Shown here piece by piece: positions 25,913 to 35,053 of a stretch of 35,053 nt of DNA (position 1 is its first letter; the number at the start of each line of letters is the position of its first letter). The stretch is from positions 1 through 35,053 of the forward strand of contig JAUYJN010000009.1 of NCBI GenBank assembly GCA_030700255.1, given 5' to 3'. A program made the translations under genes and the position numbers. This DNA comes from Candidatus Peregrinibacteria bacterium. GTDB taxonomy: Bacteria; Patescibacteriota; Gracilibacteria; UBA1369; JABINC01. The notes under the pieces are model-generated. The model had not been told where the DNA came from. It searched no databases and saw only the letters and a program-made list of their open reading frames with translations.

Positions 25913-27241
<1,329 letters not shown>

Positions 27242-28110
27242 AATAAAAGCGCCGGGCAGTTTATCAATCTAAGGAGTTCAAATCTCCTCCTCCGTTTCCC
27301 AAACGGAGCGTAGTTTAAAGGTAGTCGCGTATCGCGAGGTACGCGGTGAAGGACCTGGAAACGAATGGTAGTCCAACCAAGAAAGAATCGTATCGACTTC
27401 TGAACCTAGGCGGTGAGCAGAAGGAAGATATAATAGAGCGATTCGTTGGAATGTCAGGAACAGAATGATAGATAACCCCGGGAGATCTCACGCTGTTTCA
27501 ATATTATGTTATAATATTGAATAATGAAACTTACGCAGCGTAAGAAGTCAGCTGAGCTATAGTAACTTCTGATAAGAGTATCAGAATGAAGGGCTCACTC
27601 AGATGCATATGGAAAAAATAACTTCAGATTACATCGTTGGTCTTGTGGATGGAGAGGGAAGCTTTACAGTCTATGTGAAGAATCCTGATTCAAAGAAGCA
27701 AGTCATACGACGAACAAAAGTAGAACCACGGTTTTTTCTGAAACTTATCGAGAAAGATAAAAAAATTCTCGATGAACTCAAGAAATTCTTTGGGTGCGGG
27801 AACGTGTATTTTCAGAAAGACACTCGTCCCAATCATCAAAATTGTTATCGTTATGAAGTAGCCAACAGGAAACATCTGGAAACCATTATTATTCCATTCT
27901 TCAAAAGTAATTCTTTGAGGTTATGTTCAAAGAAAAGTGACTTTGTAATTTTTTGCAGGATTTTTAAGATGATTATGAAAAATGATCATTTCAAAGATTC
28001 GGGATTGCGTAGGATATACGCGCTCAAGCAGACAATGCATTAGAGCTCGTCGTGTGCGGGAAATCCGCAGGCACGATGGGAACATCAATTCGTAGTTTTA
28101 CGAAGATAAT
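27242..28110 (+). mobile_element. Intervening sequence (probable self-splicing intron) in 16S rRNA
   Basis: About 869 nt interrupt the 16S decoding-centre strand between the equivalents of E. coli 1399 and 1400. Before and after it the rRNA sequence is contiguous (GTACTCAC then CGCCCGTCACACC). It carries a LAGLIDADG gene near its 3' end. The 5' part is rich in hairpins, for example CTTACG/CGTAAG near 27530 and CTGATA/TATCAG near 27568. The segment between the gene and exon 2 also folds (GTGCGGGAAATCCGCAGGCAC). That is what a group I intron with an inserted homing endonuclease looks like. I could not assign P1-P9, and the end at exon 2 does not show the expected terminal G at the homology-based junction, so class and exact boundaries remain open. 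Confidence 0.8.
27603..28043 (+). CDS. LAGLIDADG homing endonuclease (single motif)
   Basis: A 146-aa protein inside the 16S intron. The one LAGLIDADG helix is DYIVGLVDGEGSF (about residues 9-21), with the catalytic acidic residue in GLVDGEG. FFGCGNVYFQKD and NCYRYEVANRKHLETIIIPFF follow the usual order of the I-CreI-like fold. With one motif it should act as a homodimer that cuts intron-less 16S genes at the insertion site, so the intron can spread. ATG at 27609 is an alternative start. Expression presumably comes from the rRNA transcript. The gene is intact and looks active. Confidence 0.93.
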   Translation: MHMEKITSDYIVGLVDGEGSFTVYVKNPDSKKQVIRRTKVEPRFFLKLIEKDKKILDELKKFFGCGNVYFQKDTRPNHQNCYRYEVANRKHLETIIIPFFKSNSLRLCSKKSDFVIFCRIFKMIMKNDHFKDSGLRRIYALKQTMH

Positions 28111-28243: not shown

Positions 28244-28610
28244 CTAGGGAGATAAAGGTGTTAAAAAGAGTTGATGGTCAACATCAAATTCTTAAACCCA
28301 TTGGGTCGTTCACTGTACAACTATTTGCTAACGTTTCGACGAAAGCAAAACTAGCAGTGAAACCAAAGCAGACATAGAGACTTACGCAAAGGACTAACCA
28401 CAAAAGGTTTTGATTATTGTTTACCCAGTGAAATTGCTCTTTTAGAGCACCCGCTTGCGGGATTTCACGGGGTTAAATTACAAATTATCTGATGGAGCGC
28501 TCTTCAATGAGTGATTCCCCGCGAAGGGAATTTCATCAGGTAAGAATCATATACTCTACGCACAGTATTCCAAGATAAAGGAATTTCTTCGTTTACTGCT
28601 GTAAGACACG
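28244..28610 (+). other. Highly structured 16S trailer without tRNA or 23S
   Basis: No reading frame or tRNA is seen in these 370 nt, but they are full of paired segments. TTGATG/CATCAA is at 28271-28287, TTCACTG (28309-28315) pairs with CAGTGAA (28355-28361), and CTGATG (28489-28494) with CATCAG (28534-28539) encloses ATTCCC/GGGAAT (28514-28519, 28526-28531). The most striking is a three-way junction: 28423-28434 pairs with 28462-28473 (one mismatch) and encloses two abutting hairpins, 28435-28449 and 28450-28461, with no unpaired base at the junction. This could be RNase processing structure or a separate small RNA. Confidence 0.55.
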
Positions 28611-28644
28611 GAAACTCGTCGCAAGACGGGTTTTCTTGTTTTTC
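28611..28644 (+). terminator. Probable terminator of the 16S unit
   Basis: GAAACTCGTC and GACGGGTTTTC form a stem with a GCAA tetraloop (28621-28624), one wobble pair and one bulge. It is followed by TTG and a T5 tract ending at 28643. Confidence 0.6.
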
Positions 28645-28666
28645 CAGAAGCCTTTATTGTTTCAAG

Positions 28667-28691
28667 AAACACCTTAAATAGGGTGTTTTTT
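28667..28691 (+). terminator. Second terminator hairpin before the exported-protein gene
   Basis: AAACACC (28667-28673) pairs with GGTGTTT (28682-28688), with an 8-nt loop and a T run to 28691. With the hairpin at 28611 it forms a double stop for rRNA transcription. Confidence 0.7.
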
Positions 28692-28697
28692 GGTGTG

Positions 28698-28706
28698 TGT
28701 TATAAT
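28698..28706 (+). promoter_or_regulatory. Extended -10 promoter of gene 28735
   Basis: TGT-TATAAT (28698-28706) matches the extended -10 consensus TGnTATAAT, and no -35 is recognisable. Transcription would start near 28713, 22 nt before the ATG. Confidence 0.6.
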
Positions 28707-28734
28707 ACAACCATAATGTAACTAACATAAAACT

Positions 28735-29382
28735 ATGAAAAAGAATATTTTTCTCTCGGTTGTCGGACTGGCAGCCTTTGCTGTTTTGGTATTACCTGTT
28801 TCTGCACAAAAACCAGCAGATGTAGGTAAGCCAGCAGAAAAGCCATTGCAGGCACAAACCGCACAGGCAAACCCAAATGCCAATAAAGGCCAGGTGAATA
28901 TTCCTACGAGTGATGCTGCCGAAACTACTCAACCAGCGACAGAAAAAAATGTCAAAGGTCAAGCAACGGCCGAATCACATCGCAGTGCGGTGGCGAGTTT
29001 TGTTCAGAGTCTCTTGGCCGTAGCTGACAGAGAAGGAGGCATCGGAGCACAAGTGAAAGTGGTAGCCCAGCAGCAAAAAGATTCCCAAGAAGCAGTGGCA
29101 GGGGAAATCAATGCAGTCGAAAATCGCAGTCCTTTGAAGACTTTTTTCCTGGGAACGGATTATAAGAACGTCGGAGCGCTTCGCAGTGAGATGGTAAAAA
29201 CCAGAAATGATATCGCACAGCTTACACGGTTGGCAGCCAAAGCGGAAAACCCAGAGGATAAGACTGCGCTCGAAACTCAAATTCAGTCTCTAGAACAAGA
29301 AGCCAAAAAGATTGATACTTTTATCACCGATAATGAAAGCCAGTTCAGTCTCTTTGGATGGGCAGTAAAACTGTTCCAGTAA
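28735..29382 (+). CDS. Exported protein with C-terminal LFGW-type domain of unknown function
   Basis: This 215-aa protein has a clean signal peptide (MKKNIFLSVVGLAAFAVLVL, cleavage likely after VSA, residue 23). A low-complexity Ala/Gln/Pro linker covers about 24-80, and a compact helical domain covers 82-215 (from HRSAVASFVQSLL to FSLFGWAVKLFQ at the very end). This domain is found again at the C terminus of the RelA/SpoT-like protein encoded 181 nt downstream. Shared anchors are VASF, EGG, a basic/aromatic FLxGxxYK block, a long charged coiled coil, and the closing LFGW-x-x-x-LF. I believe domains of this kind are common in unannotated Parcubacteria proteins, but I cannot name a family. The two genes have separate terminators and promoters. 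Confidence 0.8.
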   Translation: MKKNIFLSVVGLAAFAVLVLPVSAQKPADVGKPAEKPLQAQTAQANPNANKGQVNIPTSDAAETTQPATEKNVKGQATAESHRSAVASFVQSLLAVADREGGIGAQVKVVAQQQKDSQEAVAGEINAVENRSPLKTFFLGTDYKNVGALRSEMVKTRNDIAQLTRLAAKAENPEDKTALETQIQSLEQEAKKIDTFITDNESQFSLFGWAVKLFQ

Positions 29383-29445
29383 AGAGCGCAGGAGGTCGTT
29401 CATTGTATGATTATTTCGTGGAGCTTCGGTGAAGCGAAATCTTCC

Positions 29446-29483
29446 GCCTTGGGCGGAGAGATAAGCACCCAAATGGGGTGCTT
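29446..29483 (+). terminator. Terminator pair after gene 28735
   Basis: A CCGCC-TTG-GGCGG hairpin (29449-29461 region) is followed by AAGCACCC (29463-29470) pairing with GGGTGCTT (29476-29483) around AAATG. The T tract is short, so termination may be partial. Confidence 0.5.
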
Positions 29484-29503
29484 TATGGCGTTACGTTGAT
29501 GTG

Positions 29504-29512
29504 TGTTATATT
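29504..29512 (+). promoter_or_regulatory. Possible extended -10 promoter of gene 29563
   Basis: TGT-TATATT (29504-29512), preceded by GTG as in the promoter of gene 28735 (GTGTGTTATAAT). Transcription would start near 29519, leaving a 44-nt leader. Confidence 0.4.
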
Positions 29513-29562
29513 GGATGTACTCCATTGCCATACTCATTAAAAATATAATCCCGGTAATTTGA

Positions 29563-31062
29563 ATGATGATGAAGGATGATTTGAATAATTTTTTAGCGCT
29601 ATTCAATATATCGGAGAAGGATTTTGAATCCACCAATTTAAAGTGGGAAGATTTGCAGTCTATAAAAAAAGATTATAAAGAAATCAGAAAAGAATTAAAT
29701 CTTATCGCAAGGTATATAGAAGAAAAACTCCATACCTTGGACACAGTCCATTCCGTGAGATATAGAATAAAAGACCCCGATCATCTTTTAGCCAAGATAA
29801 TAAGAAAGAAAATCAAAGATCCAAATCGCGAGATTACCATTCACAACTATAAATCTTCGATTACAGATTTAATTGGAATAAGAGCTATTCATCTCTTTAA
29901 AGAGGATTGGGTGTCTATTCATAAATTTATAGAGGATAATTGGGATTTGCACGAGCAACCGGTAGCGTATATTAGAGAAGGAGATGCGGGTCTCTGTGTT
30001 GAGGAATACGAAAAGTATAAATGCAATATCGAATTGCATCCCCATGGGTATAGATCGGTGCATTACCTCATCCAGTCAAGACCTGGCAGAAATCCTTATA
30101 TTGCTGAAATACAAGTGAGAACTATTTTTGAAGAAGGCTGGAGCGAAATAGATCATACGATAAAATATCCCAATAACATCGTTGATCCTCTACTCAATAA
30201 ATTCCTCGATACATTCAACGTACTGGCTGGGAATTCTGATCAAATGGGATCTTTCGTGAGACGCTTAAAAGATGATTTGCTCAAAGGAACAGAAAAGATT
30301 GAAGAGTATGAAAAATTAACTGAAAAGAATACTGAAATAATCAATGATTTGAGGAAAAGGATTGCTGGGACTATTGGTGAGCTCAATTCCAAAATTCGGA
30401 ATGTCGCATTAAAAATAAATGCCGTAGCCTCAAGCGGAATTGCTACGGAAGCATTTAAAAATATTCTTAGCGCAGTCAGGGTGATGGCCTCCAAATTTGA
30501 GCTCATGATGGCCACTCGTCCTCAAGAAGCGGCAAGCTTTCTTGAATCAGCCGAACAGAAATTAGAACGAGTAGAAAAGTTGCTCGAGATGACTCTCGAA
30601 GAAAATAATAGTAGTAATAATACTGATGCTGCTGGTGGAGAAGCAGTGGCTGGATCGTATAAAAAGGATGTCGCTTCTTTCATGCATAATTTGAAAACCA
30701 TAGCGGAGTTGGAGGGAGGTGTTGCGCAAAAAATGCTCATGGATGTGCAGGGGCAGGATGGTTTTCAAACAAAAATTGAAAACGCAGTCAATGAAATCAG
30801 GGGGAGAAGCGGATTTGTAAAATTTCTTATCGGGCCAAAATATAAAAGCATTCAATCTTTACAGGCTGAAATAGTTGCGAACCAGGAAAGAATGAAGATA
30901 CTGACTGACGCAGCGAATCTCATAACCGATCCGGCTGTCCAGTTTGTATTACAGAAGCAAATTGATTTGTTCGCTCGACAGAACAGTCATTTGAAGGCGT
31001 TTGTCGCTAAAAGAGAGCGCGGCATAAATTTGTTTGGGTGGCTCGTCCAGCTATTTCATTAA
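29563..31062 (+). CDS. RelA/SpoT-type nucleotide pyrophosphokinase fused to an LFGW-type C-terminal domain
   Basis: A 499-aa protein. Residues about 60-215 are a RelA/SpoT synthetase domain with the usual motifs: basic ATP-binding segment SVRYRIKDPDHLLAKIIRK, SSITDLIGIRAI (about 96-107), GYRSVHYLIQ (about 161) and the catalytic Glu block EIQVRTIFEEGWSEIDH (about 181-197). No HD hydrolase domain and no TGS or ACT domain are present, so on sequence it would make but not degrade (p)ppGpp or a related nucleotide. A coiled coil at about 245-355 leads to a C-terminal domain (365-499), which is the same kind as in the exported protein just upstream and ends INLFGWLVQLFH. No signal peptide or membrane helix is seen. 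The fusion is not a layout I know for Rel, RelQ or RelP. Confidence 0.85.
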   Translation: MMMKDDLNNFLALFNISEKDFESTNLKWEDLQSIKKDYKEIRKELNLIARYIEEKLHTLDTVHSVRYRIKDPDHLLAKIIRKKIKDPNREITIHNYKSSITDLIGIRAIHLFKEDWVSIHKFIEDNWDLHEQPVAYIREGDAGLCVEEYEKYKCNIELHPHGYRSVHYLIQSRPGRNPYIAEIQVRTIFEEGWSEIDHTIKYPNNIVDPLLNKFLDTFNVLAGNSDQMGSFVRRLKDDLLKGTEKIEEYEKLTEKNTEIINDLRKRIAGTIGELNSKIRNVALKINAVASSGIATEAFKNILSAVRVMASKFELMMATRPQEAASFLESAEQKLERVEKLLEMTLEENNSSNNTDAAGGEAVAGSYKKDVASFMHNLKTIAELEGGVAQKMLMDVQGQDGFQTKIENAVNEIRGRSGFVKFLIGPKYKSIQSLQAEIVANQERMKILTDAANLITDPAVQFVLQKQIDLFARQNSHLKAFVAKRERGINLFGWLVQLFH

Positions 31063-31097
31063 AAGCCAAGAGTATCATCGTGCTGTAGGTCAAAGCG

Positions 31098-31120
31098 CCA
31101 CCATTCCAATGGTGGTTTTT
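31098..31120 (+). terminator. Terminator of the RelA/SpoT-like gene
   Basis: CCACCAT (31098-31104) pairs with ATGGTGG (31109-31115) around loop TCCA, followed by T5. It lies 36 nt after the stop codon. Confidence 0.85.
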
Positions 31121-31211
31121 GAGAGGCGAAGATCTGCCAATTCTAGCCGAAACCACTAGTGGGTAACTCGCCTTGACTTCGCGTGCTACGAAGGAAAGGT
31201 ATTGGTGTTTG

Positions 31212-31220
31212 TGATATACT
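31212..31220 (+). promoter_or_regulatory. Extended -10 promoter giving a leaderless HAD mRNA
   Basis: TGA-TATACT (31212-31220) is an extended -10. Its predicted start near 31227-31228 falls on the ATG of the HAD gene (31228), so the mRNA should have no 5' leader. Confidence 0.5.
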
Positions 31221-31227
31221 TTGAATC

Positions 31228-31824
31228 ATGAATAAAATCTTACTATTGGATGCGGATGGGGTGGCGGTCGCGCCACGAGAGAAATACTTTAGCACGCGAT
31301 ATGTAGAAGACTTCGGCGTTTCCTCAGACATCATCGTGCCGTTTTTCAAGAACGAGTTCAATGATTGTCTGACTGGGAAGAAAGAATTGCGGGAAGTTTT
31401 CAGCGAAGAGGATCTTCTGGAAAAGTGGGGATGGAAGGGATCTCTGGATGAGCTGCTCGAGTACTGGTGGGCGGGGGAGAATAAACGCAATGAGCCAGTT
31501 CTTGCAATCGTGAAAAATCTCCGAGCGGAGGGAATGAAATGTTACCTTGCAACTGATCAGGAAAAGAATCGGGCACAGTATTTGTTGCGTGATATGCGGC
31601 TGGCTGAAGATTTTGATGGAGCATTTTTTTCTTGTGACCTTGGTGCTCGAAAGCATGAGGCTCTCTATTGGGAGAAAGTCATGGCTACTCTGGGCAATCC
31701 GGATCCTGCGACTGTTTCTTTCTGGGATGATGAAGAAGAAAATATCGAAGTTGCTCAAAAAGCGGGCATTGATGCTCACTTGTTCACAACAGTTGAAGAT
31801 CTGAAAAGAGGGTTGAAGATTTGA
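31228..31824 (+). CDS. HAD-superfamily hydrolase
   Basis: This 198-aa protein has HAD motif I LLLDADGVAVAP (Asp8, Asp10), motif II as CYLATDQ, the motif III Lys in GARKHEALYWEKV, and motif IV FWDDEEENIEVAQKAG. The C1 cap is helical (about 20-80, LEKWGWKGSLDELLEYWWAG). Members of this group dephosphorylate small sugars, nucleotides or cofactors. Sequence alone does not say which. It abuts the convergent gene at 31825 with no base between the stop codons. The start has no SD, in line with a leaderless message. Confidence 0.85.
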   Translation: MNKILLLDADGVAVAPREKYFSTRYVEDFGVSSDIIVPFFKNEFNDCLTGKKELREVFSEEDLLEKWGWKGSLDELLEYWWAGENKRNEPVLAIVKNLRAEGMKCYLATDQEKNRAQYLLRDMRLAEDFDGAFFSCDLGARKHEALYWEKVMATLGNPDPATVSFWDDEEENIEVAQKAGIDAHLFTTVEDLKRGLKI

Positions 31825-32286
31825 TTACCGCTCGTGATCAATTTTGCCAGTTTTTGCTTCGATCATTCCCACGGCGCGGGTGAGATACTTGTAGCGCGCC
31901 TTGAGTTTTTCGTATTCTTCAGGTGAGATGTTTGTTTTCTCTTTCAAAAAATTCAAAGCTACTACAATAGGAATAAGGCCTTGCTTTGCGGCCTCTCTCG
32001 CTAGATGATTTGGAGCGTCTTTGACAGCGAGGTCTGTGATAGCATAGAGCTCTGCGATAGGGTGAGTTGCTTCAAAAGCAGTAAGCAATCCTTCAAGTTC
32101 GTTTATTTTTTGTTCACACTCCTCAGGACTTAGTTGGGCAACTTCCGGTTCGTCGGCATATTTTGCCAGCCATTCTGGTGCTTGCTCCGCGTGCGCCGGA
32201 TTGAGTTCAGTCACACTTGTTCTCGGATGGCCTTTCGGTTCCTGTTCCGGTGACGGATTGGGTTTGGGAAATTCGTGTTCGTTCAT
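31825..32286 (-). CDS. Small soluble protein of unknown function
   Basis: I do not recognise this protein of about 153 aa. From the ATG at 32286 it starts MNEHEFPKPNPSPEQ, a disordered Pro/Glu-rich tail to about residue 50. A helical core follows, with LSPEECEQKINELEGLLTAFEA, the block LYAITDLAVKDAPNHLAREA and PIVVALNFLKEKTNISPEEYEKLKARYK in outline. It has no signal or membrane segment. The ATG at 32292 is another possible start. The frame is open to 32346, but the -10 box at 32299-32304 lies inside that extension. Confidence 0.6.
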   Translation of the reverse strand: MNEHEFPKPNPSPEQEPKGHPRTSVTELNPAHAEQAPEWLAKYADEPEVAQLSPEECEQKINELEGLLTAFEATHPIAELYAITDLAVKDAPNHLAREAAKQGLIPIVVALNFLKEKTNISPEEYEKLKARYKYLTRAVGMIEAKTGKIDHER

Positions 32287-32298
32287 ATACATAAGTGT

Positions 32299-32304
32299 AT
32301 CATA
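32299..32304 (-). promoter_or_regulatory. -10 box of gene 31825-32286
   Basis: TATGAT on the minus strand at 32304-32299 puts transcription start near 32292, at or just before the two candidate ATG codons. This would make a leaderless or near-leaderless message. Confidence 0.4.
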
Positions 32305-32385
32305 TCGGGAAAAACCTGGCTCAGAGGGCTTTGCTTTCCAAGCCAACCGGTTTTTTGTTTGACTTAGAGAGAATTGAATAAATTG

Positions 32386-32417
32386 AAAACCGCGTAGCTT
32401 GTGGGCTAGGCGGTTTT
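32386..32417 (-). terminator. Terminator of gene 32472-32864
   Basis: AAAACCGC (32386-32393) pairs with GCGGTTTT (32410-32417), with an inner AGC/GCT pair. Read on the minus strand it ends in TTTTC, 55 nt after the stop codon. Confidence 0.75.
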
Positions 32418-32471
32418 GTTTGCTTCGGTATTACGAAGACTTTTGTTCTGGAGAGAGGCGGGGCGTGCTGT

Positions 32472-32864
32472 TTAGTAGAGTTGTCTCTTCTTGAGATCGA
32501 TGTCGCGGACAGTTTTGGCGGCATCCCAGGAGAAATGGAAAGCTGGTCCAGTCCATCTGCTTATCTCTTTGTAACTTCCGTCTTTCAGGTAACTTGCTTT
32601 GGCTTGCCACCCGAGCATAAATTTCCATCCGTCGCTTTCCGTTTTAACCCACGGACTAACGACAGTGTACGTTTCCGTTGAGTTTGAGACTTCGATGGAG
32701 CACTCGAAGTTGTTTTTGATGCAGTACTCGTTAAAGTTGTATTCTTTTGCGGATGCTTGTTGCCCTTCGTTTCCCGACTGGGTGATGTTGTTGGTAATAT
32801 ACCATCCCATGGCGAGACCGAAGATCAAGAGGAGTCCTGACCAAGTCAAACTCGTTTTGTTCAG
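32472..32864 (-). CDS. Small membrane-anchored protein, probable CTG start
   Basis: I do not recognise this protein of about 130 aa. It has one N-terminal membrane helix (WSGLLLIFGLAMGWYI, residues about 7-23) and then an extracytoplasmic domain with two cysteines five residues apart in EYCIKNNFECSIEV and Trp/Lys-rich strands (WKFMLGWQAKASY). The frame is open to 32951, but the TTG there is the -35 box of its own promoter. The best start is CTG at 32864-32862: AAGGAG lies 6 nt upstream (32876-32871), one of the few clear Shine-Dalgarno sites in the window. ATT or ATC starts nearby cannot be excluded. Confidence 0.6.
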   Translation of the reverse strand: MNKTSLTWSGLLLIFGLAMGWYITNNITQSGNEGQQASAKEYNFNEYCIKNNFECSIEVSNSTETYTVVSPWVKTESDGWKFMLGWQAKASYLKDGSYKEISRWTGPAFHFSWDAAKTVRDIDLKKRQLY

Positions 32865-32922
32865 GATTGTCTCCTTGCAGGTTGTTAGTGAACGAAATTC
32901 AGAATACTTATTCTGACCTCCT

Positions 32923-32951
32923 ATTATAGCACTATTTTGTGTTATTGTCAA
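32923..32951 (-). promoter_or_regulatory. Strong consensus promoter of the small membrane protein gene
   Basis: On the minus strand, TTGACA (32951-32946), a 17-nt spacer and TATAAT (32928-32923) match the sigma-70 consensus at all twelve positions. An imperfect palindrome AGAATA-CT-TATTCT (32901-32914) sits at the predicted transcription start, as an operator or 5' hairpin might. Confidence 0.85.
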
Positions 32952-32974
32952 TCGCAGAAAAATGGCTTAACCTA

Positions 32975-33003
32975 TTGACTTTTTCGCTCTTTCCTGCGAT
33001 ACT
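32975..33003 (+). promoter_or_regulatory. Probable promoter of the tandem structured RNA
   Basis: -35 TTGACT (32975-32980), a 17-nt spacer and -10 GATACT (32998-33003). Transcription would start near 33010, 20 nt before the first structured element, and no coding start follows. Confidence 0.45.
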
Positions 33004-33029
33004 CTGATTTAGCCAGAATTGACAATTGA

Positions 33030-33406
33030 TATCAGGATTTTTGAGAGATGATTCTATCTCTATGTATTCCTTCCAGCGCACTGTAAGGGGGAGCAGTCAT
33101 TTCGTTGCGGCGACTCAGAACGCTGCCTAACACGATTGACACTTTGTCCTCGCAGAGAGCATTGGTGTTTTTGCCCAAGCTCTAAGGAATGTGGCTTCTT
33201 CGGCGCAAGCTTAATACGCCGTTCTCACAGGAGCCACTCAGTAGGCTGTGACCACAAGGCAATCGCGCGCGACCAGAATCGCCGCGCCAACGCCTTCACA
33301 AGCCGAGAAGTGCTGGGGGACGGCAGGGTGTAAGACCACCTTGCCGGACTACACGAGGAGGAAGACAATGAATATCTGTCTTCCTCCTCTCTCAAAAGTC
33401 CTGATA
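33030..33406 (+). ncRNA. Structured non-coding element, copy A (377 nt)
   Basis: The ends are inverted repeats: TATCAGGATTTTTGAGAGA (33030-33048) against TCTCTCAAAAGTCCTGATA (33388-33406), one mismatch in 19. Inside the 5' end AGAGAT-GATTCT-ATCTCT forms a hairpin. Near the 3' end are a 10-bp stem, CGGCAGGGTG/CACCTTGCCG (33321-33330, 33337-33346), then GGACTACA, then a 13-bp stem, GAGGAGGAAGACA/TGTCTTCCTCCTC (33355-33367, 33377-33389). The last two nucleotides of that stem overlap the terminal repeat, so the two pairings may alternate. The middle 230 nt are GC-rich and differ from copy B. Frames in it are short and unlike proteins. It could be a structured RNA or a MITE-like element. I do not recognise the family. 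Confidence 0.6.
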
Positions 33407-33436
33407 GGCCGGTTCTTTTAGAAGGTTAATAATTTG

Positions 33437-33694
33437 TATCAGGATTCTTGAGAGATGATTCTATCTCTGTAGTATTCTTTCCGATGTTCTAGGCGGACGC
33501 TTAGGTGCGGGTGCGGGGCTTGCCCTAGTGAATGCTGTAGTGAAGCATGCTGTGCTCGTTTGGGCTCTCCTCCCTGGCTTCAAACGGCAATATGCAGCGC
33601 AATATCGGAGAACGGCCGTGTTTATTTCCGGCCGGACTACATGAGGAGGAAGACAAAGAACATTTGTCTTCCTCCTCTCTCAAAAGTCCTGATA
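33437..33694 (+). ncRNA. Structured non-coding element, copy B (258 nt)
   Basis: Same orientation and same parts as copy A: terminal repeats 33437-33455 and 33676-33694, the AGAGAT/ATCTCT hairpin, a GC stem CGGCCG/CGGCCG (33613-33618, 33629-33634), GGACTACA, and the same 13-bp stem (33643-33655, 33665-33677) with a different 9-nt loop. The GC stem has changed on both strands relative to copy A (an A-T pair against C-G, a G-T against G-C) while staying paired, which argues that the fold is selected in RNA. The middle is 119 nt shorter. It begins 30 nt after copy A and is followed 9 nt later by a terminator. Confidence 0.6.
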
Positions 33695-33703
33695 TTTGCT
33701 CAA

Positions 33704-33725
33704 AAAACACCCGGAAGGGTGTTTT
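33704..33725 (+). terminator. Terminator after the tandem elements
   Basis: AAAACACCC (33704-33712) and GGGTGTTTT (33717-33725) form a perfect 9-bp stem with a GGAA tetraloop. It closes the putative transcript that begins near 33010 and insulates the flavin-carrier gene. Confidence 0.9.
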
Positions 33726-33770
33726 CTTGCGGGGATTTTTTGACAATGAGCTTTGAATTCTTTTGAAAAG

Positions 33771-33779
33771 TGGTATAAT
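33771..33779 (+). promoter_or_regulatory. Extended -10 promoter of gene 33812
   Basis: TGG-TATAAT (33771-33779) is an extended -10, with TTTGAA about 16 nt upstream as a weak -35. Transcription would start near 33786. Confidence 0.6.
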
Positions 33780-33811
33780 TTAGGTGTCGTTTTAATACAA
33801 ACACAAATAAA

Positions 33812-34243
33812 ATGTTTACAATGAAAAAGAGTACAGCCTTGATCGCGCTGGTGGTGTTAATCAGTGTTTTCGTTTACTATCGGTACGCGGTAAAAGTACT
33901 GCAGGTGAACAAAGGTGAGAATGAGGTACCGGTGACGGATATGCTTCCGGTCGGAGCGAAGAAAGTGAGCGCGACGGTCAAATATATGGCGACAGAGGAC
34001 AAGGAAGACGAACTGCGTTTCGTTTTGACTATCGACAAACAAGGGAACATAACTGAAGTCGCTACCTTGGACGCGAAGACGAATGAAGTGCCTGAAAAGA
34101 AAAAGGCGTTCAACGAGCAAGCCACGGTTATGATTGTGGGGAAGAAGTTGAGCGAACTCTCGGCTATCGATAATGTCGCAAAATCGACGTTGACAACAAA
34201 TGCTTTCAACAGCGTCATCGATCAACTGAAAGCACAATTGTAA
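33812..34243 (+). CDS. Membrane-anchored FMN-binding (flavinylated) domain protein
   Basis: This 143-aa protein has one N-terminal membrane helix (about 6-24, ALIALVVLISVFVYY) and an extracytoplasmic domain that resembles small FMN_bind domains. The C-terminal motif AIDNVAKSTLTTNAF (about 118-132) fits the ApbE target pattern, where NqrC/RnfG proteins have SGATxTS. Thr126 would be the residue that receives FMN through a phosphoester. The next gene, starting at the base after its stop codon, is an ApbE flavin transferase, which strongly supports this. It would carry electrons outside the membrane. Its partners (quinone, dehydrogenase) are not in the window. The ATG at 33821 (MKKSTALIAL) is an equally good start. 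Confidence 0.75.
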   Translation: MFTMKKSTALIALVVLISVFVYYRYAVKVLQVNKGENEVPVTDMLPVGAKKVSATVKYMATEDKEDELRFVLTIDKQGNITEVATLDAKTNEVPEKKKAFNEQATVMIVGKKLSELSAIDNVAKSTLTTNAFNSVIDQLKAQL

Positions 34244-35053
34244 ATGATGGAAAAATTTTCTTTTACCGGATTGGGGACAAAATGGTCCGTCATCGTTGAC
34301 GGCAAACCATTTCGAAATGAGGTAAAGGAAAGTATTCTTCAATATGTGGAGGACTTCGAAAACCGTTTCTCGCGTTTTTTGCCGGAGTCCGAGGTGAATG
34401 CTTTTCGAGAGTCGCCGGCTGGCGATTTTGTTCTTTCCAAAGAATTTTTTCTTCTGCTTACCGTCGCGGATAAGCTTCGAGTCTTGACTGATGGTGCGTA
34501 TGATCCGGCAGTGGCGAGCGTTCTCGAAGAGGCGGGTTATGGTGCAAAGCAGGGTTTGAATTCTCTCAAGAAAAATGAGAGATTTTTTGTTCCAGCGTGG
34601 TCACTCAGAGGTGAAAAACTGACAATTGATGGTCCGGTTGCATTTGACCTCGGAGGTATCGGGAAAGGATATTGCATCGATCGGGTAGCTGAGATAGTTA
34701 AGCGTTTTGGATATAATTATTTTCTTGTGGATGGCGGCGGAGATATGGTAGCAACAACGAAGGCGGATGGGAGTGCGTGGCGGATTGCCGTTGAATATCC
34801 CGGGAAACCGGATATGGTCGCAAGTGTCGTGAATCTAGCTCATCAAGGTGTGGCAGTGTCTGATAGCTTTCGACGGCGCTTCGGGAAATGGCATCACTTG
34901 GTAGACGTACAAGAAAAAAAGCCGGTGGAGAAAATCATCGGGTGCGCCGCTGTAGCGAGAGACGCGTGGGCAGCTGATTGTATGACTTCCGGACTTTTCT
35001 TCGCGCCTCCCGAGAATTATCATACTTTGGCACAGGAATTCGAAGCCAGTTAT
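34244..35053 (+). CDS. apbE: FAD:protein FMN transferase ApbE, truncated by window end
   Basis: 270 residues are present before the window ends, and the family is about 300-350 aa. ApbE moves FMN from FAD onto a Thr of target proteins outside the membrane, using Mg2+. Visible blocks: GLGTKWSVIV near the N terminus, the region DGAYDPAVASVLEEAG (LTDGAFDP-type), FDLGGIGKGYCIDRV (the conserved DLGGIAKG motif), FLVDGGGDMV (the DxGGD motif) and WHHLVDV (the sHIiDP motif). No signal peptide or lipobox is seen at the start, which is odd for an enzyme that acts outside. The start is the ATG directly after the stop of the flavin-carrier gene (34241-34243), so the two are translationally linked; the ATG at 34247 is an alternative. 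Confidence 0.93.
   Translation, partial: MMEKFSFTGLGTKWSVIVDGKPFRNEVKESILQYVEDFENRFSRFLPESEVNAFRESPAGDFVLSKEFFLLLTVADKLRVLTDGAYDPAVASVLEEAGYGAKQGLNSLKKNERFFVPAWSLRGEKLTIDGPVAFDLGGIGKGYCIDRVAEIVKRFGYNYFLVDGGGDMVATTKADGSAWRIAVEYPGKPDMVASVVNLAHQGVAVSDSFRRRFGKWHHLVDVQEKKPVEKIIGCAAVARDAWAADCMTSGLFFAPPENYHTLAQEFEASY

Follow-up and report, generated by a model that had tools for sequence, protein, structure and literature searches.

ROOL, GOLLD and OLE are large, ornate bacterial RNAs that are long, multi-branched and non-coding, that assemble as homo-oligomers and whose function is poorly understood (PMC12286853). They are the closest analogues in kind of the locus described here, a pair of directly repeated units that are likewise long, multi-branched and non-coding. 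However, whereas each of these RNAs is a single molecule of about 600–800 nt, the present units measure 258–377 nt and occur in tandem. In contrast to those RNAs, they have neither an Rfam match nor a family of homologues, and no adjoining tRNA island or recognizable phage genes are seen in the window, i.e., the whole stretch of 35,053 nt that was analyzed. By analogy with the oligomeric RNAs, perfect hairpins such as the stem named P4 below could in principle dimerize.

Two other groups bear comparison. HEARO/IscB omegaRNA and the TnpB-associated RNAs resemble the units in being structured, intergenic and a few hundred nucleotides long, but the units have no Rfam match and no gene of the IscB/TnpB type was present among the scanned proteins of the window. 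MITEs and mobile insertion cassettes are small and combine inverted constant ends with a variable interior. The units share their inverted ends, the constancy of these ends, the variable interior and the small size, but differ by the absence of dispersed copies and of a consistent target duplication, as well as by a covarying interior stem. Constant ends around unrelated interiors would be expected of a MITE and likewise of an RNA whose arm varies.

Tandem units and their flanks

The window corresponds to one contig (C9) of a genome of 1.37 Mb that is 97% complete. The units sit between a minus-strand ORF (32472–32951) and a plus-strand gene pair that begins at 33812. The initial annotation described two tandem units, an observation that is confirmed with exact coordinates and lengths: copy A spans 33030–33406 (377 nt) and copy B 33437–33694 (258 nt), both on the plus strand and separated by a spacer of 30 nt (33407–33436). 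Sequence comparison indicates that the copies are true homologues, their 3′ modules (33343–33406 and 33631–33694) being 94% identical over 64 nt (blastn E 4.6e-22) and their 5′ modules (33019–33061 and 33426–33468) 88% identical over 43 nt (blastn E 9.5e-12). The inverted ends, initially given as 19 nt, pair over 22 nt at 91% in both copies. The middles do differ, as had been proposed: no similarity is detectable between the interiors, and homology between them was rejected because their local alignment score falls below the mean of shuffles. No reading frame common to both copies was found, in agreement with the view that no protein frame fits. A leader peptide (GAGGAGGAAGACA-ATG in copy A) was considered and rejected, since copy B has no ATG at that place.

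The pair is preceded by a promoter-like site and followed by a terminator-like one, both oriented as the units are. The candidate promoter, TTGACT-17-GATACT (32975–33003, plus strand), has a TG before its -10 and ends 26 nt upstream of the first stem of copy A; it matches the consensus at 9 of 12 positions, a quality for which about one site is expected by chance in the region. Beyond copy B, a hairpin (AAAACACCC-GGAA-GGGTGTTTT, 33704–33725, plus strand) starts after 9 nt. The terminator initially read there is upheld as a real hairpin of 9 bp and -13 kcal/mol, but most of its U run belongs to the 3′ arm of the stem itself and the signal scan did not list it. Between this hairpin and the next gene lies a TATAAT preceded by TG (33774–33779), which could start separately the small metabolic operon of FMN-binding and ApbE genes (plus strand, at 33812 and 34244). 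This operon, located 3′ of copy B and on the same strand as the units, starts 118 nt past copy B.

Predicted fold, paired changes and strand

Folded alone, copy A reaches -170 kcal/mol (z -8.57 against dinucleotide shuffles) and copy B -115 kcal/mol (z -7.68), with no shuffle as good in either case. A common plan emerges, in which a closing stem P1 of 14 pairs is followed by the hairpin H1, the stem P2 with its variable arm, the stem P3, the constant GGACTACA, the hairpin P4 and the 3′ strand of P1. Predicted pair probabilities are about 1 over most of the length of P1, P2, P3 and P4 in both copies; P1 of copy B contains one mismatch, and the pairing of H1 is less certain than that of P1–P4.

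In copy A, the 5′ strand of P1, TATCAGGATTTTTG (33030–33043), is predicted to pair with CAAAAGTCCTGATA (33393–33406) with probabilities of 0.88–1.0. H1, AGAGATGATTCTATCTCT (33044–33061), which contains the AGAGAT/ATCTCT pairing noticed initially, comes right after this strand, as it does in copy B. The arm (33073–33316) holds an interior of 230 nt and is closed by P2, in which CCAGCGC (33073–33079) faces GTGCTGG (33310–33316) with pair probabilities of about 1.0. It is followed by the GC stem P3 (CGGCAGGGTG / CACCTTGCCG, 33321–33346), by the constant GGACTACA (33346–33353), mostly unpaired in the prediction although its first G closes P3, and by P4 (33355–33389). In copy B, the 5′ strand of P1, TATCAGGATTCTTG (33437–33450), faces CAAAAGTCCTGATA (33681–33694), and H1 (33451–33468) is identical in sequence to that of copy A. 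The arm (33481–33608), with an interior of 112 nt, is closed by P2 (CCGATGTT, 33481–33488, with AATATCGG, 33601–33608); P3 (CGGCCG / CGGCCG) occupies 33613–33634, the constant GGACTACA 33634–33641 and P4 33643–33677. Within this second GGACTACA segment, ACTACA (33636–33641) is predicted to pair with TGTAGT (33468–33473). The stem of P4, described initially as 13 bp, is perfect and comprises 13 bp in copy A and 15 bp in copy B.

The GC stem had been said to keep its pairing in spite of changes on both strands. This holds for one pair of P3 only, and the three upper pairs are lost in copy B. P2, which the initial annotation did not list, provides what we regard as the best evidence for an RNA: between the copies, CCAGCGC/GTGCTGG is replaced by CCGATGT/ATATCGG, so that four of the seven pairs are changed on both sides and yet remain paired and in register. 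In the trimmed alignment of the two sequences, 95.5% of the cells pair, compared to 43–55% with the partners slid. A search for covarying pairs returned five pairs changed on both sides, a count that derives from two paralogues only and that 17 of 500 shuffles reached, a modest control. A P2 this long arises at the exact position in shuffled interiors with p 0.007 (copy A) and 0.006 (copy B), or about 0.04–0.05 for each copy if a slack of 2 is allowed. P1, H1 and P4 test no covariation, since they are invariant between the copies save for one broken pair of P1. As for the interiors, that of copy A is more folded than its shuffles (z -3.0) whereas that of copy B is no more structured than expected (z +0.5); the case for an RNA is thus carried mainly by the frame, P2 and copy A.

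A G-U pair is kept in both copies in each of P1, H1 and P2, which favors the plus strand: on the opposite strand, the same positions would form A-C mismatches. Moreover, the folding advantage of plus over minus in copy A exceeds what composition explains, being reached in none of 60 shuffles. It is weak in copy B (3 of 60 shuffles), whose composition already favors G and T. The G-U pairs kept in both copies, together with the asymmetry of copy A, speak for an RNA read from the plus strand.

A switch had been suggested from a competition of P4 and the terminal stem for the same few bases. This idea was rejected, as P4 and the extended P1 overlap by 2 nt only. The competition that does occur opposes H1 to the inner 5 bp of P1, both of which use the GAGAG strand; forcing the inner P1 over H1 costs 2.2 kcal/mol in copy A and 0.8 kcal/mol in copy B. 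This amounts to the usual migration of branches at a junction, and a regulated switch is not supported.

Search for relatives and competing explanations

A covariance model of the trimmed core, built from the two copies, found no match elsewhere in the genome of origin, in 89 genomes of the order, 353 of the class and 49 of another class, or in 380 genomes drawn from the phylum. With looser filters, up to an E of 1, it found none in the 38 nearest relatives. Together, these searches covered about 710 distinct genomes, among which the homologues that were initially expected to settle the identity of the element did not appear. No homologue was found in the genus mate, and blastn of the locus yielded nothing in 99 relatives or in phage or plasmid records. 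Eight exact-pattern scans of viral contigs hit unrelated places only, and the covariance model returned nothing over the loci so retrieved. A single GGACTACAYGAGGAGGAAGA match in genome contigs, from an archaeon, was judged to be chance, as its surroundings are unlike the unit and look coding; three loci matching the 5′ end of the unit were similarly dismissed, the sequence around them having no similarity to it. Because these searches, from the genus mate up to the phylum sample, found no homologue, there is no independent covariation. A relative that keeps the shape alone would be missed, since only two sequences went into the model and filters were applied when the genomes were searched.

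At gathering score, no Rfam family matches the locus, including ROOL, GOLLD, OLE, raiA and HEARO. A permissive scan of 32900–33800 up to an E of 10 gave weak matches to unrelated families only, with no group I or group II intron and no riboswitch among them. A group I intron, with GGACT/AGTCC as its P7, was rejected given the absence of a core match and the use of the AGTCC strand in P1. The standard RNase P RNA (contig C43, 165.9 bits) and tmRNA (contig C37, 130.9 bits) genes are both present elsewhere in the genome with scores over the cut-off, so the units are not displaced housekeeping RNAs of these kinds.

The main alternative named at the outset was a MITE. The units would then be two adjoining non-autonomous elements, either MITE-like or mobile cassettes, in which transposition requires the ends and the interiors have been swapped. 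Inverted ends are indeed present, with their 22 nt pairing at 91% and their subterminal hairpins, and the contrast of conserved ends with unrelated interiors, the TA at both outer ends of both copies and the TTTG on either side of copy B would all suit such elements. However, copy A shows no target duplication in its flanks, and the TA ends are equally explained by P1, TA being self-complementary. In the 97%-complete genome, this locus is the only one: searches turned up neither dispersed copies nor a second pair of ends within 3 mismatches, other ends matching only singly and with 3 mismatches, so that ends of an autonomous partner are missing too. The lack of dispersed copies and of a consistent target duplication makes a MITE less likely, and the pairing kept in P2 and the strand asymmetry of folding also speak against it. 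We therefore hold mobile elements to be a secondary, rather unlikely explanation, under which a single local pair would be of modest interest. It is improbable that a DNA palindrome cluster, or a phage or plasmid remnant, was duplicated locally, with no present function and with interiors that drifted. The neighborhood is lineage-specific, as the product of the upstream gene has no relative among the 39 nearest genomes and the genus mate has no ApbE gene, which would fit such an origin, but drift alone does not produce near-identical ends around interiors without detectable similarity, and P2 is still paired. It is very unlikely that the units form a cis-regulatory leader, a tandem switch for the FMN-binding/ApbE operon. 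Their strand, their position 118 nt upstream, the tandem arrangement known from some riboswitches and the two alternative states of H1 and inner P1, close in energy, are compatible with a leader, but the terminator-like hairpin and the TATAAT with its TG intervene, no riboswitch of Rfam matches, and nothing supports ligand binding or anti-termination.

We consider that the locus is probably, though by no means certainly, an accessory gene for a structured non-coding RNA with two tandem domains. The shared architecture, the covariation of P2, the G-U pairs and the flanking signals argue for such a gene, whereas the lack of homologues in the genomes searched and the interior of copy B, no more structured than its shuffles, weigh against it, the two copies being the whole data set. 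The initial interpretation is supported in part. A single transcript of the plus strand, about 700 nt long and running from about 33010 to 33727, would carry two paralogous folded domains, each composed of a constant frame (P1, H1, GGACTACA and P4) and a P2 arm that differs in sequence and length. As the frames are identical and the arms unrelated, the frame may be recognized by a common partner, and the arms may have different purposes or be free to vary. The frame could be a handle for this partner, e.g., a protein, RNase III or a further copy of the RNA, and the variable arm could give each domain its own specificity or be bulk that is tolerated. On this view, the RNA would be a structured scaffold that works in trans and apart from the FMN-binding/ApbE operon with its own -10-like site; its function is only a guess. 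That it represents a large bacterial RNA of a new kind, in which tandem domains recruit shared machinery through the invariant frame (P1-H1-GGACTACA-P4) and each interchangeable arm serves as a specificity module, is a speculative and, in our opinion, doubtful extension. If the locus encodes an RNA, this reduced genome devotes about 700 bases to a structured RNA with two domains that falls outside every curated family. Such a new family, its frame constant and its arms exchangeable, would help to reveal the role of large RNAs of this sort.

Other features of the window

A perfect TTGACA-17-TATAAT site with a TG before its -10 lies on the minus strand at 32923–32951, divergent from the candidate RNA locus, and overlaps the listed start of the upstream minus-strand ORF. 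Further upstream, a protein of 499 aa (29563–31062) harbors a RelA/SpoT domain. Rfam lists just the 16S and two tRNAs in the window, and no 23S gene follows the 16S in 28250–35053; the rRNA operon appears to be split. Within the 16S rRNA gene itself (25913 to about 28240), an insert (27230–28110) interrupts the sequence and encodes a LAGLIDADG protein (27603–28043). This insert has a weak Rfam match to group II intron D1–D4 (27510–27594, 27.3 bits, E 0.011), which is below the gathering score, and GAGCTCGTCGTGTGCGGGAAATCCGCAGGCACGATGGGAAC near 28045 resembles domain V; it may be a group II intron that carries a LAGLIDADG ORF.
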